A DNA stretch of 64,000 nt from Eubacterium sp. (GTDB lineage Bacteria > Bacillota > Clostridia > Oscillospirales > Acutalibacteraceae), in contig JAFSRX010000066.1 of assembly GCA_017445905.1 (NCBI GenBank), positions 1 through 64,000 of the forward strand, read 5' to 3'. Of the stretch, positions 14,368-27,012 are shown one piece after another. Both the position numbers and the translations under genes were made by a program. Below the pieces are notes generated by a model. That model was not told the DNA's origin. It searched no databases and was given only the letters and a program-made list of their open reading frames with translations. The first letter of the stretch is position 1, and every line of letters starts with the position of its first letter.

Positions 14368-14399
14368 GAAAAAGAGCATCAAACCGAAGTTCAATGCTC
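14368..14399 (-). terminator. Intrinsic terminator with UUCG loop
   Basis: On the minus strand GAGCATTGAAC-TTCG-GTTTGATGCTC forms an 11-bp stem (two wobble pairs), followed by a T-run. It ends the transcript of the three-gene cassette 14411-16697. Confidence 0.85.
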
Positions 14400-14410
14400 A
14401 AAAATACTTA

Positions 14411-15235
14411 TTAATCCTCGTCAGGAAGCTTTTTATCAACAAGCTTCATAACCGATATTGTTCCCGCTGAAAGAACTGCCGACAGGAAAGCAAGGATAAG
14501 AAAATCCTTTGTTGTTGTTGAAATCATCGACTGCTTATGAATCTCAGGCAGGATATTTATGCCTCCTCCGAGCTTGAATATAACCGCCAGAAGCGAGCCG
14601 AGTGCCGTTGCAACTGTTCCCGTAAGAATTCCGCCGATTGCAACAAGATAACCTTCCTTCTTTTTCTTATACATAATCATTATTGAGGGAAAGCATACAA
14701 ACGCAATAACAAATGAAATTATTGTTGCTCTTGGATATTTTCTTGAAAAGTCGTTAATTTTTGTTTCTATTCCTCCCGTATTATGAAGACCGACGGTATC
14801 GCTGTAAATTCTTGCGGCTTTTTCAGCTGATCTTTTAACATCTTCCTCATTATAAGTAATTTCGTTACCGTCAAGATATTCTACGCTCAGTTCATAGAAA
14901 TAACTGATTTTATTTTCGCTGTAGAGAGTTTCGTTTTCCTCGCTGAAAACGCTGAGAGCCGCCTGGCGCAATGCCTCATCCGTTGGATAATCCTGTTCAA
15001 CTCTTTCAAAAACCCTTGCAGGAATATTTGTTTCGCTTGCAAGCGCCTCATATTTCATATTCAGTTGATTATTGCATTCCTGAACTAAATCCTGATTAGC
15101 AAAACTATTGATAAAATAGTTTTTATCCGCCGCCGTAAAAGTCATAATAACAGAAATCAAAAAAACTATTGTGCTGATTGCCATAACAGTTTCAAGAATA
15201 ACGGCAATAATTCTTCTTGATAAGCCTAAATCCAT
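14411..15235 (-). CDS. Uncharacterised multipass membrane protein
   Basis: A 274-aa protein of a family I do not recognise. There is one hydrophobic helix near residues 10-33, a mainly hydrophilic, acidic extracytoplasmic region (about 34-170), then three helices near 172-192, 200-222 and 245-266 with basic loops KKKKEG and VDKK. The short tail is acidic (LPDED). Its ATG overlaps the stop of the preceding gene (TAATG), with GAGGAGG in that gene as ribosome site, so the two are translationally coupled. No transporter or enzyme motif is visible. Probably part of a three-gene unit with 15235-15828 and 15861-16697. Confidence 0.75.
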   Translation of the reverse strand: MDLGLSRRIIAVILETVMAISTIVFLISVIMTFTAADKNYFINSFANQDLVQECNNQLNMKYEALASETNIPARVFERVEQDYPTDEALRQAALSVFSEENETLYSENKISYFYELSVEYLDGNEITYNEEDVKRSAEKAARIYSDTVGLHNTGGIETKINDFSRKYPRATIISFVIAFVCFPSIMIMYKKKKEGYLVAIGGILTGTVATALGSLLAVIFKLGGGINILPEIHKQSMISTTTKDFLILAFLSAVLSAGTISVMKLVDKKLPDED

Positions 15236-21489: not shown

Positions 21490-24400
21490 CTATTTCTTTG
21501 TTGTAACCGATTTCGATTTACTCCAAGAGGAATAATACTTTGTTCCGCTAACACTTTTATATGTTCTTATTCTTACATAATACTTTTTCTTTGCTTTGAG
21601 TTTTGAAATCGTTTTGCTTGTTGTGCTGTTCTTTGAAACGGTAACGGTTTTCTTATTCTTCGTAAACTTGCTGTCGGTTGCATACTGAATTTCATAACCC
21701 GTTGTCTGCGTTGCCTGCTTGTTCCACTTAACCGTGAAGCCCTTTGATTTTGCAGTAATGCCTGATAGGCTTGTTGTCTTCGGGTTGATCATAAAGTTCA
21801 AGTTCTTTGTTCCCTTGTAGTTGCCCTTAAACGTTATTTTAACCGTGTAGGTTCCAACATTCTTTCTGCCGTTTGCATATGAGACCGTGTAGTTTTCAGG
21901 AGAAATTGTCTTACCCTTTGAATCCTTAACTGTTACGGTAGGCTTCTTTACTTTACCGTTGTAAACATATTCAACTTTTGAAAGTTTTATCGTCTCAGGA
22001 CGGTAAATAACTGTTTCGTTCTTAATATCACCGCAATCGCACTTCGCAACAATATAACCATTTTGGGATACTGTTGCTTTAGTCAAAATATTTTTATAAT
22101 CATGGATATGTTCATGATTCACTTCAAAAAAATTATAATAAAGGGCGGTATTCTCGTTTATTGTTATTGGAAATTGTTGAACTTCATTTTTCATCTCTGC
22201 GTCAAAATACACAGAATCAATTACAATGTCTTTGCCGCTTACATTATGAATAAAACTTTCAATTATTTCATCGCTCAATTTATAATACTTGTATCCTGCG
22301 TCAATAATGCTTTCTTTAAATCCGGCAATCATACCATCAAACATGCATATTTCATATAAATGAACTAGTTCGCCTGTATTTAGTCCCCATTGCTTCTGTG
22401 CGTTAGTTTTTATTGTTATTAAATTATTTAAAGGATATTTATATGAGTTTATCCAGTCAACCGCATTTTCGTAGCTGCCTCCACCCAAGTTCATAAAATT
22501 CTTTACTTGATTAAATAAACCTTGATTGTAATAAATATCTGCAAAATTCAAACACTCTCTAATCTCATGTTCGAAAATTCTTATAAACATTTCATAACAA
22601 GAAGCCACTTCACTTGCTGTTCCATAATAATATGAATACTGTAGCGCCTCTTTACAAGCGTTTTCAATTTTCACATAAATATAAAGCCTATATTGTTGAT
22701 TGCTATTTACTGTTGTTGCAAAAAAAGTATCACACAAATAAGAAGTTAATTCTACAATTAGTTTTATTTCTGCAAGTGGGAAAACTTTATTAAAGCCTTT
22801 AACAATTACATCTTTAACTATCTTTTCAGCAACTTTCTCAACAAGTGTTAAGCCATATTCAGTCATCTTTTCTGCAACAATTTTGTCAATATACTGTTGC
22901 GGTGTCATTGATAATGATTCTATAACGTCATCGATAGCTTTTTTGAAATTACCATCGTAAGCATATTTTTGGATAGCATTCAACGCTGATTCAAGTTCTT
23001 TTCCTTGTTCATGAATTAATATATATTGGCTTAACAAATTTATGCATTCTAAAGCGTCATCGCATCCATCCGACATAGAATTAATCAACTCGTATGTTAA
23101 TTCATACGAACTCATTTCTGTGCCCATTAAGTCTTCTATATAATCGTAGAAAAGTCCAAAATTACTACTATTGCTAATATCACTTGTCAACTCAAAACCT
23201 TTACCGATAAAATAGTTAATAATACTGTTTTGAAGATTATCAAACTGTTTTTCCATATACGAGTCAAAATCAGGCAAGGTATATGTATTAGCAATTAAAT
23301 CAAACAGAACCGCATCGTAGTATTCTTGAATACTTTGGTCGGTTGTTTTTCCGTTAAACAAATGGGAAGAGCTCTGAACAAATGCATTTGCAAGTTTGTT
23401 AACGTCCCAAGCATCACTCATTAACGGTCCTGCCGGACCCTCTTTTGACATAATGTAATCATAATAGTGTGAAACATTCAACCGAATATACTCATTCAAG
23501 GATAAACTATCGTTATCACTTCCTTTTTCACTAAGCATTAAATTATATAACGCAAAAGAGGTTCCACCTGCTGCTTTAATATTATCTTTAATCTCAACTT
23601 TAAGTTCGTCAATATTTTCAACATTAATTGAAAAATCATTATTGTAATTATCAGGAGTCATTCTGAACGAATAGATAAGTCTGTCACCAGCATAAAAATA
23701 AGCAGAAACGTCAAAACTCTTTGTATTATAACTATTAATTAAGCCGCTACTTCCTGTAAGTGTATGATATTTCCCTTCAAGTTTAAATGTTCTATATGCC
23801 CAGCTTATATTGTCGCCAAAATTCCAACGAGCAATCCAAACCTCAAATCCATTTTCGAATACTTCGCCGTTAACTCCAATGTTTCCATTTCTTGTGACTT
23901 GATCTCTGAACCCTTTGGGTGCATAACCTTTAAATTCGCTACCATCTAATTTATATAATCTGGCATCACCCTGATTGTCTTCGTAATGACCTTCGTCAAC
24001 ACATTCAAGGTCGGCAAGACAAACTCTGGATGAATTGTTATTGTTTTGTTCGCTATCCCACTCGCAAATAAAGCCATGATTATCAAGTGAATATATATCA
24101 TCATCGCCTATAGACTCTCCGTCATTCCATAACCCTGAACTTTTTATCAATTCTGCATAATCCTCAGGATATTCCGAATAATCACCATCATCATTTGGCT
24201 CGCCGTAATCCCAATTTGAATAATTAAAAGTTTCACCAGTTATCCAAGTCCAGACTCCTTCATTGTCTTCGTCCGTTGCTCCAATCCAATAAGTTTCCTT
24301 TTTGCCATTTTCATTAATAAATGTATATAAAAAATCTTGTTCTGCCTTACTTGTTATTGATACAAGGTGACCTTCAATGTTATTGCAATATGCCTTTGCT

Positions 24401-24552
24401 TCAAACCAATTTAGACCATCATCAAAAATCTGATATGTGTGACCATTAAAACTCTTTTTTGAACTATCATTCGCATTCGCAGAAAACTCAAGCCCTGCGG
24501 TTATGCTCAAAAGCATACATATTGATAAAACAACACTTATAACTTTTTTCAT
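21490..24552 (-). CDS. Large secreted protein: C-type lectin domain, NPCBM-like domain, fibronectin-like C-terminus
   Basis: A 1020-aa exported protein. Signal peptide (about 1-27, KKVISVVLSICMLLSITAG). Residues 33-170 are C-type lectin-like: AYCNNIEGHLVSI, YWIGATDEDNEGVWTWI, NWDYGEPND, LWNDGE and FICEW. Residues about 178-330 resemble an NPCBM sugar-binding domain (YRTFKLEGKYHTLTG.., LIYSFRMT). About 345-850 is a helix-rich region with no family I know. The C-terminus has an Ig-like repeat (YTVSYANGRKNVGTYTVKITFKGNY-type) and an Fn3-like module ending KKYYVRIRTYKSV. The same C-terminal module style is in the protein at 58275-60137. Probably a surface carbohydrate-binding protein; catalysis is not evident. 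Confidence 0.82.
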   Translation of the reverse strand: MKKVISVVLSICMLLSITAGLEFSANANDSSKKSFNGHTYQIFDDGLNWFEAKAYCNNIEGHLVSITSKAEQDFLYTFINENGKKETYWIGATDEDNEGVWTWITGETFNYSNWDYGEPNDDGDYSEYPEDYAELIKSSGLWNDGESIGDDDIYSLDNHGFICEWDSEQNNNNSSRVCLADLECVDEGHYEDNQGDARLYKLDGSEFKGYAPKGFRDQVTRNGNIGVNGEVFENGFEVWIARWNFGDNISWAYRTFKLEGKYHTLTGSSGLINSYNTKSFDVSAYFYAGDRLIYSFRMTPDNYNNDFSINVENIDELKVEIKDNIKAAGGTSFALYNLMLSEKGSDNDSLSLNEYIRLNVSHYYDYIMSKEGPAGPLMSDAWDVNKLANAFVQSSSHLFNGKTTDQSIQEYYDAVLFDLIANTYTLPDFDSYMEKQFDNLQNSIINYFIGKGFELTSDISNSSNFGLFYDYIEDLMGTEMSSYELTYELINSMSDGCDDALECINLLSQYILIHEQGKELESALNAIQKYAYDGNFKKAIDDVIESLSMTPQQYIDKIVAEKMTEYGLTLVEKVAEKIVKDVIVKGFNKVFPLAEIKLIVELTSYLCDTFFATTVNSNQQYRLYIYVKIENACKEALQYSYYYGTASEVASCYEMFIRIFEHEIRECLNFADIYYNQGLFNQVKNFMNLGGGSYENAVDWINSYKYPLNNLITIKTNAQKQWGLNTGELVHLYEICMFDGMIAGFKESIIDAGYKYYKLSDEIIESFIHNVSGKDIVIDSVYFDAEMKNEVQQFPITINENTALYYNFFEVNHEHIHDYKNILTKATVSQNGYIVAKCDCGDIKNETVIYRPETIKLSKVEYVYNGKVKKPTVTVKDSKGKTISPENYTVSYANGRKNVGTYTVKITFKGNYKGTKNLNFMINPKTTSLSGITAKSKGFTVKWNKQATQTTGYEIQYATDSKFTKNKKTVTVSKNSTTSKTISKLKAKKKYYVRIRTYKSVSGTKYYSSWSKSKSVTTKK

Positions 24553-24591: not shown

Positions 24592-24620
24592 ATATTATCA
24601 TTTATCGATCAATCAGTCAA
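24592..24620 (-). promoter_or_regulatory. Promoter of the secreted lectin-like protein
   Basis: Minus strand: TTGACT (24615-24620), 17 bp, TAATAT (24592-24597) with an extended TG. The -35 overlaps the stop region of the upstream gene. Confidence 0.78.
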
Positions 24621-25096
24621 CAAAAATTATACAAATGCAGAAATTCTCGCGCCATGTCAGCAATATTGAAAACCTGTTTTTCTTTCTCCTTAGCCCTTTC
24701 AATAATCTGCTTTGAAATATCATCATCAAATTTTGAATAGGTAATTAATATATCGCTGTTTTCAATTGCCCAATCATATAGAGTTTTATATAAAACTGAG
24801 TTATCAATTTCCTCTTTAAACGGACAATAAACTCTGAAAGCGTTTTTTAACTGTTTATAACGGTATTCAAAATCATTTTTATAAATATCCCTGAGCTCGA
24901 TTATTTCAATATCATCAAATCTCAGAAAGCTGATTATTTCGCAGAATTTAATATCAAAATATGTTCGCCTGCAATGATAGATTTTGTCAATTTTATTTTC
25001 TTCAATAATACTTTTAACAATCTCAATAAACCTTGTTATATCATAATGATTGAAATAATCTTCATCAATAAACCCACATAAAAACGCAGTGCTCAT
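24617..25096 (-). CDS. Small unknown protein, possible Rossmann/SLOG-like fold
   Basis: A 159-aa protein starting MSTAFLCGFIDEDYF. Alternating hydrophobic strands and helices (FIEIVKSIIEENKIDKIYHC, FDDIEIIELRDIY, SDILITYSKFDDD, CNADM-type end) and the pattern of an early FxGxxxE-like turn and a late ILITY strand are reminiscent of SLOG/DUF1273 (YpsA-like) nucleotide-binding proteins, but the similarity is weak and my confidence is low. ATG 25096 is preferred, with AGGGGA 7 bases upstream; a longer frame to 25180 runs into the terminator hairpin upstream. The gene lies immediately behind a promoter, a structured leader and an intrinsic terminator (25112-25275), so expression may depend on read-through. 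Confidence 0.72.
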   Translation of the reverse strand: MSTAFLCGFIDEDYFNHYDITRFIEIVKSIIEENKIDKIYHCRRTYFDIKFCEIISFLRFDDIEIIELRDIYKNDFEYRYKQLKNAFRVYCPFKEEIDNSVLYKTLYDWAIENSDILITYSKFDDDISKQIIERAKEKEKQVFNIADMAREFLHLYNFC

Positions 25097-25111: not shown

Positions 25112-25275
25112 AAAAAAGTGCGCAGCCGAAGCCACGCACAAAAAACGCATAGCTCTAACTGTCGCCAAACAAAATTTCACAATTCCACAAGAGAACGCAA
25201 AATAAGAGCTCGCATTTTTATCAAAAAAAATGCGTTTATTTAATGGAATTAATCATATGAAATTTTGTTTGGCGC
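25112..25275 (-). ncRNA. Candidate structured RNA / attenuating leader
   Basis: Not coding. The predicted transcript starts about 25273-25276, right at the base of a 17-bp helix: CGCCAAACAAAATTTCA (25274-25258) pairs with its complement at 25163-25179. Inside, AATTCCA pairs with TGGAATT across a 7-nt bulge, and CGCATTTTT pairs with AAAAATGCG around a 6-nt loop. A 3' segment (GACAGTTAGAGC..) leads to a 9-bp UUCG-capped hairpin (25118-25139) and a U-run (25117-25112): an intrinsic terminator 16 bases before the downstream ATG. It may be a free ncRNA of about 160 nt or a transcription-attenuating leader. Confidence 0.6.
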
Positions 25276-25279
25276 TTAT

Positions 25280-25308
25280 ATTCTACCATAATTAAAAAAT
25301 AATATCAA
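25280..25308 (-). promoter_or_regulatory. Promoter of the structured RNA
   Basis: Minus strand: TTGATA (25303-25308), 17 bp, TAGAAT (25280-25285) with an extended TG. The start point falls at the 5' arm of the long RNA helix. Confidence 0.75.
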
Positions 25309-26642: not shown

Positions 26643-26680
26643 AAAATCACCTTCATTATAAATCATTAATATCAAAAATA

Positions 26681-27012
26681 CGAGTTGCCCGTAAGCCGAG
26701 TTCTGTCGTGGACGATTATCTATCTCGACGCATTGTTGCCAATACGCTCAAGCCGCCCTTCGAAGTTATGTGTCGAGCAAACAACCCTTCAGTCGGCGTT
26801 GCAGCGGATGGGGTTTACATGGCAGCAGGTGTCTCCATCTGCTCGGTGGGCTCTTACCCCGCCTTTCCATCCTTACCTGCAAATGCAGGCGGTTTATTTC
26901 TGTTGCACTTTCCCTAAGGTCACCCTCGGCGGCCGTTAGCCGTCATCCTGCTCTGCGCTGCTCGGACTTTCCTCACAGATATGCTATCTGCGCAACCGTC
27001 TGGACAACTCGC
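26681..27012 (-). ncRNA. rnpB: RNase P RNA (M1 RNA)
   Basis: Minus strand, about 332 nt. The 5' end GCGAGTTGTCC pairs with the 3' end GGGCAACTCG (helix P1). The universally conserved GAGGAAAGTCCG (P4/J3-4 5' strand, near 26976) and the 3' counterpart ACAGAACTCGGCTTAC (near 26700) are present, along with GGTAAGAGCCCACCG. It is the catalytic RNA that processes pre-tRNA 5' ends. The predicted transcription start from 27020-27048 coincides with the first P1 base. The LCP gene follows closely and could be read through. Confidence 0.95.

Follow-up and report, generated by a model that had tools for sequence, protein, structure and literature searches.

What kind of RNA is encoded by a promoter that leads directly into a long helix and then into a terminator, just ahead of a gene of no recognisable family? 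Such a locus lies on the minus strand of the 64,000-nucleotide stretch of Eubacterium sp. DNA analysed here, which we call the window. We conclude that the element is probably a cis-acting transcription attenuator with a built-in promoter, one copy of a family that extends across Clostridia. Because of its layout, its two competing pairings and its place before genes, our best reading is a new orphan class of riboswitch-like attenuators whose regulon is biased to the envelope; comparison among copies bears out the predicted fold, the two predicted pairings and the position before genes.

Layout of the window leader

The initial annotation had described a promoter, a 17-bp helix, a UUCG-capped terminator and a gene for a protein of 159 amino acids, and inspection of the minus strand confirms all four (Table 1). 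A 17-nt spacer separates the boxes TTGATA and TAGAAT, the latter is followed after 6 nt by GCCAAAC from position 25273, and transcription of the window leader would be expected to start at 25273. The predicted fold of the 172-nt RNA has an energy of −58.5 kcal/mol versus a shuffled mean of −35.7 ± 4.2 (z = −5.4), and none of 200 shuffles reaches it.

The product of the downstream gene matches no family in Pfam, NCBIfam (best E = 0.39), PADLOC or PDB sequences, and a mechanical list of open reading frames extends the frame to 187 aa by starting it at a GTG further upstream. The gene is rare, occurring in 3 of 60 relatives with its own genome included, and in all three copies the RNA stands 15–16 nt ahead of it. 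Beyond it by 64 nt lies an ORF of 1020 aa (21490–24552, minus strand) with a signal-peptide-like start; a promoter-like site (TTGACT-17-TAATAT) was seen by eye in the gap, and the 1020-aa ORF may be co-transcribed with the 159-aa gene or be under its own promoter.

Table 1. Features of the leader and its adjacent gene in the window
Feature	Position	Strand	Details and basis
−35 box TTGATA	25303..25308	−	sequence
−10 box TAGAAT, extended −10 (TG just before)	25280..25285	−	sequence
P1 5′ arm	25258..25274	−	pairs with 25179–25163, 17 bp uninterrupted
P2 core 5′ arm AACGCA	25231..25236	−	A1 columns 46–51 with 98–103
P3 hairpin (U-run, loop, A-run)	25215..25230	−	A1 columns 55–61 with 72–78
Strand B TGCGAGCTC, bulge between P3 and P2, tail partner	25206..25214	−	covariation 80–157 (A1), 125–220 (A2)
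P2 core 3′ arm TGCGTT	25194..25199	−	alignment columns and covariation
P1 3′ arm	25163..25179	−	sequence and A1 columns
Tail switching strand GAGCTATGCG, partner B or terminator 5′ half	25146..25155	−	columns and duplex energies
Intrinsic terminator: stem 25139–25131 / 25126–25118, 9 bp, TTCG loop, T6 25117–25112	25112..25139	−	sequence
159-aa ORF, ATG at 25096	24617..25096	−	putative control by leader; no family found

Related copies across Clostridia

A DNA search with the element matched 11 of 20 relatives (E ≤ 1e-3), ten from its own genus including its own genome and one from the same order, and a single genome could have as many as 9 places. When an exact pattern taken from the 3′ part of the element was searched, it matched 103 stretches in named genomes and none in viral contigs. 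Most of the 80 listed among these 103 matches carry the title Oscillospiraceae, Ruminococcaceae, Ruminococcus, Eubacterium, Monoglobus, Clostridium or Clostridia; two are called just 'bacterium', and another two Bacteroides sp. isolate NALB_7823_8. We take the Bacteroides title on one NALB_7823_8 contig to be a mislabel. A regular expression run over all loci yielded 148 unique places, of which one was false by eye (leaving 147) and two more without a promoter anchor were dropped, giving 145 copies.

We aligned 68 of the 145 copies (alignment A1) and built from 68 copies a covariance model, R1. This model finds 9 places in the element's own genome (E ≤ 1e-8), with three weaker matches antisense to these, and recovers the RNA in 84 of 245 genomes and 51 of 126 genera of the order (E ≤ 1e-3) and in 85 of 341 genomes and 54 of 203 genera of the class (E ≤ 1e-5, scoring at most 8 places per genome); P1 and the terminator were search criteria in the pattern, regular-expression, order-wide and class-wide scans. 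In a phylum-wide draw of 348 genomes, only the element's own genome matched. The RNA family appears to be large, dispersed in gut Clostridia and undescribed so far. A weak model match at 14370–14452 of the window was discarded because it overlaps the 3′ end of an ORF and the apparent terminator of that ORF. A second alignment (A2) holds 86 class- and order-level copies from 80 hand-picked loci, mostly the best-scoring match of each genome, aligned to a model without the pseudoknot.

BLAST with the window copy alone, a query that would miss diverged copies, found no match in plasmids and one in phages, on an unannotated 'UNVERIFIED' faecal scaffold (MT835845). This copy (MT835845.1; positions 1391–1545 of locus L255) scores 114.5 bits and stands ahead of a lipoprotein-like ORF. 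The scaffold is titled 'Bacteriophage sp.', a label that we regard as doubtful since the neighbouring ORFs look bacterial by eye.

Promoter and first helix across copies

The promoter is tied closely to the RNA. Boxes with at least 4 of 6 matches and a 17-nt spacing occur in 113 of 145 copies, and the first base of P1 lies 6 nt past the −10 box in 127 of 145. Of the 125 order-level copies that have the 6-nt gap, 122 show the extended −10 TG, as do 67 of 85 class-level copies, and in 71 of those 85 TAnnnT stands at exactly the right position; the promoter was a search criterion solely for the order-level set, for which TAnnnT near GCC was required, and the class-level copies were found without it. 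Since the promoter is mostly locked to P1, the first base of the helix should be the transcription start. P1 itself, counted to its first mismatch, measures 13–19 bp in 99 of 145 copies. A leader-peptide attenuator was ruled out by the lack of a conserved short ORF: 22 of 145 and 8 of 86 leaders contain a short ORF with a ribosome site, and the positions of these ORFs are scattered.

Covariation and two competing pairings

The initial annotation proposed covariation among homologues as a test of the structure, and covariation is present. When the column pairs of A1 are ranked by APC-corrected G, the best fall mostly in P1, the terminator and P2, and the long-range pair 80–157 and the antiterminator pair 145–186 also rank; several high-ranking pairs in A1 and A2, mostly within the terminator, do not correspond to base pairs, so part of the signal stems from relatedness or misalignment. 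With the pseudoknot included, 92.0% of cells in A1 are paired, and the covariation score of 0.384 compares with 0.188 in shuffles (0 of 500 as high, a count that is not a probability because the copies are related) and with 0.05–0.12 when the structure is slid along the alignment. In A2, 95.3% of cells are paired overall and 92–93% in the two pseudoknot helices. The long-range pair between strand B and the tail is GC in 40, AU in 15, GU in 8 and unpaired in 1 of 64 copies at columns 80–157 of A1, and it covaries again at columns 125–220 of A2, outside the model (GC 54, AU 21, GU 6, unpaired 3; n = 84). Covariation therefore supports P1, P2, the terminator and the predicted B–tail pairing. P3 varies little in A1, and its nearly invariant A-run and U-run would fit a possible second partner, the tail's own U-run.

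The switch initially envisaged, between AACGCAT in the leader and ATGCGTT before the terminator, gives way to another: AACGCAT (25236–25230) belongs to helix P2 and the start of P3, and it is the bulge strand that covaries with the tail. The tail has a second potential partner in the 5′ half of the terminator. We compared duplex energies of own and swapped partners in alignment A1, which covers 68 of the 145 copies, and in every one of the 86 copies of A2. For the antiterminator, own partners average −17.6 versus −15.7 for swapped partners in A1 and −17.4 versus −14.3 in A2, and the own partner pairs better than the average swap in 55 of 68 A1 and 76 of 86 A2 copies; for B–tail, the energies are −11.6 versus −10.2 and −11.6 versus −10.1, and own beats the mean swap in 53 of 68 and 69 of 86 (in each of the four cases, 0 of 5000 permutations match the mean of the own partners). 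Reversing the tails abolishes the antiterminator gain (26 of 68, p = 0.47; 47 of 86, p = 0.14) and leaves a small B–tail effect of mixed sign (43 of 68, p = 0.04; 33 of 86, p = 0.04).

Folded alone, tail and terminator adopt the antiterminator in 43 of 68 A1 and 38 of 86 A2 copies, so the two states would lie near balance. By columns, the antiterminator is paired in 86–87% of A1 cells (pair 145–186: GC 41, AU 10, unpaired 16). It is weak by columns in the class set, with 78.9% of cells paired versus 77.0% in shuffles, and two of five measures fail to exceed the shuffled alignments (238 and 162 of 500). There the outer pairs are often lost (pair 201–266 forms in 18 of 82), and the inner part, 209–213 with 240–247, is 91.9% paired. 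Both pairings thus appear to coevolve by energy, the antiterminator columns being weak class-wide, and together they would form a mutually exclusive pair of folds that is a candidate for termination control.

Genes behind the copies

The initial annotation proposed looking for the same RNA ahead of other genes, and most copies have a gene there. After copies with less than 200 nt downstream were dropped (147 to 144, and 86 to 85), 99 of 144 and 45 of 85 copies have a start codon with a ribosome site within 40 nt past the terminator. In controls the share is 5–7% (323 of 4600 positions drawn at random; 8 of 153 other hairpins that resemble terminators). The gap between terminator and gene would leave little room for a second promoter. 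Secreted-looking proteins account for 97 of 136 downstream products of at least 130 aa versus 116 of the 585 remaining ORFs at these loci, by a crude secretion rule of our own and with mechanically called background ORFs; neither gene start nor secretion was a search criterion. A Pfam scan that covered 93 and 78 of the 184 downstream products, each truncated to 330 aa or less, found BspA-type leucine-rich repeats (LRR_5) in 16 of 93 and 12 of 78, CHAP in 5 and 1, SLH in 2 and 2, M23 in 3 of the second set, Cu_amine_oxidN1 in 5 of the second set, PIN7 in 4 of the first, and zinc ribbons. The putative regulon is biased to secreted and surface proteins.

Other copies lack a nearby gene. No gene start lies within 130 nt in 18 of 144 and 22 of 85 copies. 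In the 23 of 86 copies of A2 counted as gene-less, some of which are the upstream member of a tandem pair, both pairings are preserved to about the same degree as in linked copies: own partners beat swaps in 17 of 23 gene-less versus 46 of 50 linked copies for the antiterminator and in 19 of 23 versus 38 of 50 for B–tail (rank tests for the differences, p = 0.09–0.72), which leaves room for a stand-alone role. Were the terminated RNA of about 160 nt itself the product, acting in trans with read-through secondary, such copies would be expected, as would complete promoter–RNA–terminator units and their tandem repetition. We nonetheless consider this unlikely as an account of the family, given that gene starts within 40 nt are 7 to 14 times commoner than in controls and that a free RNA would have no need of a tail coevolving with the terminator. 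Between the free RNA and the attenuating leader initially offered as alternatives, the leader is thus the better supported, since most copies have a gene and ribosome site just past the terminator and two competing pairings are kept; the free RNA may yet apply to gene-less copies and tandem arrays.

Tandem copies and exchanged interiors

Tandem copies each have their own promoter and terminator, an oddity that fits poorly with a simple leader; their number is not a rate, because four loci (L181, L191, L225 and L238) were widened after a tandem copy had been seen. At about 970–1950 of locus L044 (genome G008), four promoter–RNA–terminator units follow one another with a period of about 265 nt ahead of a PIN7-domain gene. 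In the tandem pair at 301–860 of L225 (genome G219), the upstream copy is followed by what looks by eye like a cut-short repeat of the start of the downstream gene; this partial repeat suggests that the whole module was duplicated.

Leader interiors are decoupled from their flanks. Among 139 order-level copies (9591 pairs), 30 pairs have interior identity of at least 0.85; in 20 of these both flanks are dissimilar (below 0.75 upstream and below 0.70 downstream) and in 4 both flanks are alike. Conversely, 16 pairs have downstream identity of at least 0.78, and 10 of these have interior identity below 0.75, the median of all pairs being 0.68. In genome G007, the copies at about 890–1130 of L024 and 845–1085 of L026 are near-identical in upstream promoter DNA, tail, terminator and first gene bases and diverge from the −10 box through P1, in which the two ends are conserved. 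We read such exchange of interiors as probable ectopic gene conversion between copies. Because of this exchange, integron attC sites, whose hairpins end in conserved core-site boxes and which go with an integrase, were considered as a possible parallel. A dispersed RNA regulon may grow by the passing of leader interiors from locus to locus.

A dispersed repeat or a mobile element, whether MITE-like or the end of an insertion sequence, could also account for several copies per genome and for interiors exchanged between loci, its terminator having been co-opted ahead of genes. Deep divergence with compensatory change and a consistent place and strand before genes make this origin very unlikely. 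In a tally confined to downstream products, the 25 commonest Pfam families of each set include no transposase.

Proposed mechanism

In the attenuator that we favour, polymerase would start at the first base of P1, and the nascent RNA would form a long hairpin of P1, an internal loop, P2 and P3, leaving strand B in a bulge. The tail emerging past P1 would pair with B, allowing the terminator to fold and keeping the gene off; this B–tail state would form first as the RNA emerges, and it would need a bend, given the long hairpin and the few tail nucleotides before the pairing segment. Were B unavailable, the tail would pair instead with the 5′ half and loop of the terminator, and polymerase would read into the gene. 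A cell signal, whether ligand, ion or protein, would presumably set the balance. That the element is simply a strong promoter with a constitutively leaky terminator and no regulation, as near-consensus promoters and the want of a known signal might suggest, is likewise very unlikely, for it leaves the coevolving B–tail and tail–terminator pairings unexplained.

As a riboswitch in the strict sense, with a direct ligand, the leader is a plausible candidate only. More tentatively still, the family may be a new, multicopy orphan riboswitch class across Clostridia through which one intracellular signal sets a regulon of surface and secreted proteins (BspA-type LRR, CHAP, SLH and M23), its unit being the promoter–leader–terminator module, with interiors exchanged and genes joining by acquisition of a module. 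Occurring in 85 of 341 sampled class genomes, often in several copies, and matching no Rfam family in the loci tested, the RNA would rank with the larger classes of regulatory RNA that await characterisation in gut bacteria. Should it prove to be a riboswitch, the ligand would reveal a signal by which gut Clostridia set their surface proteins. The two competing pairings suggest mutations that test the mechanism directly.

Comparison with known systems

The initial annotation recognised no known class, and none emerged here: for the element in the window and in ten copy-bearing loci, no Rfam 15 family reaches threshold, among them preQ1, ZTP, fluoride, c-di-GMP, T-box, 6S and raiA. At gathering thresholds the window matched RNase P only, a bacterial class A RNA at 26677–27011 (minus strand, 274 bits). 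The ten loci gave sub-threshold overlaps only (E ≤ 5), for example tmRNA on L002 (14.7 bits, gathering 47, E = 0.032) and MIR6224 on L009 (28.8 bits, gathering 171, E = 0.055). A likeness of the tail to tracrRNA, noted by eye, was set aside, as the Rfam tracrRNA match (25.8 bits, E = 2.9) lies at 872–949 of L002, outside the element at 1523–1682. In a literature search mostly without subscription papers, supplements and a 2017 survey, which reportedly holds 224 candidates, we recognised no publication describing this RNA.

The preQ1-I, ZTP and fluoride riboswitches are pseudoknot-gated terminators, and the logic is similar: a leader precedes a gene, and a long-range pairing holds a strand that would otherwise form an antiterminator or meet the terminator. 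Unlike these classes, the present RNA has no Rfam match at threshold, a long P1–P2–P3 hairpin with a bulge strand, a regulon biased to secreted proteins and a promoter mostly locked 6 nt from the helix. LoaP-dependent antitermination likewise uses a leader element ahead of an intrinsic terminator in Firmicutes. Among the 341 class genomes, the RNA occurs in 85, LoaP over the cut-off in 56 and both in none (Fisher p = 3e-8), a result that is not independent evidence because both follow taxonomy and that still removes LoaP as a common factor: control by LoaP was rejected, as 0 of 85 RNA-bearing genomes have it over the cut-off.

'Mobile attenuators', as described by Naville and Gautheret 2010 (PMC2965389), resemble the present family in placing related terminators ahead of unrelated genes; they are described as highly conserved and as having spread recently from transposable elements, whereas the copies here are diverged, covary and have a conserved alternative pairing. 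Another comparison is with the trpB motif, an orphan, terminator-bearing candidate presented in a 50-genome survey (PMC11109978), whose main text is without the words Ruminococcus, Faecalibacterium, Eubacterium and Clostridia. Like the trpB motif, the RNA is an orphan that combines a terminator with a putative antiterminator sequence. Comparison of its copies finds what is generally looked for in a riboswitch, a covarying, conserved fold in the 5′ leader of a gene.
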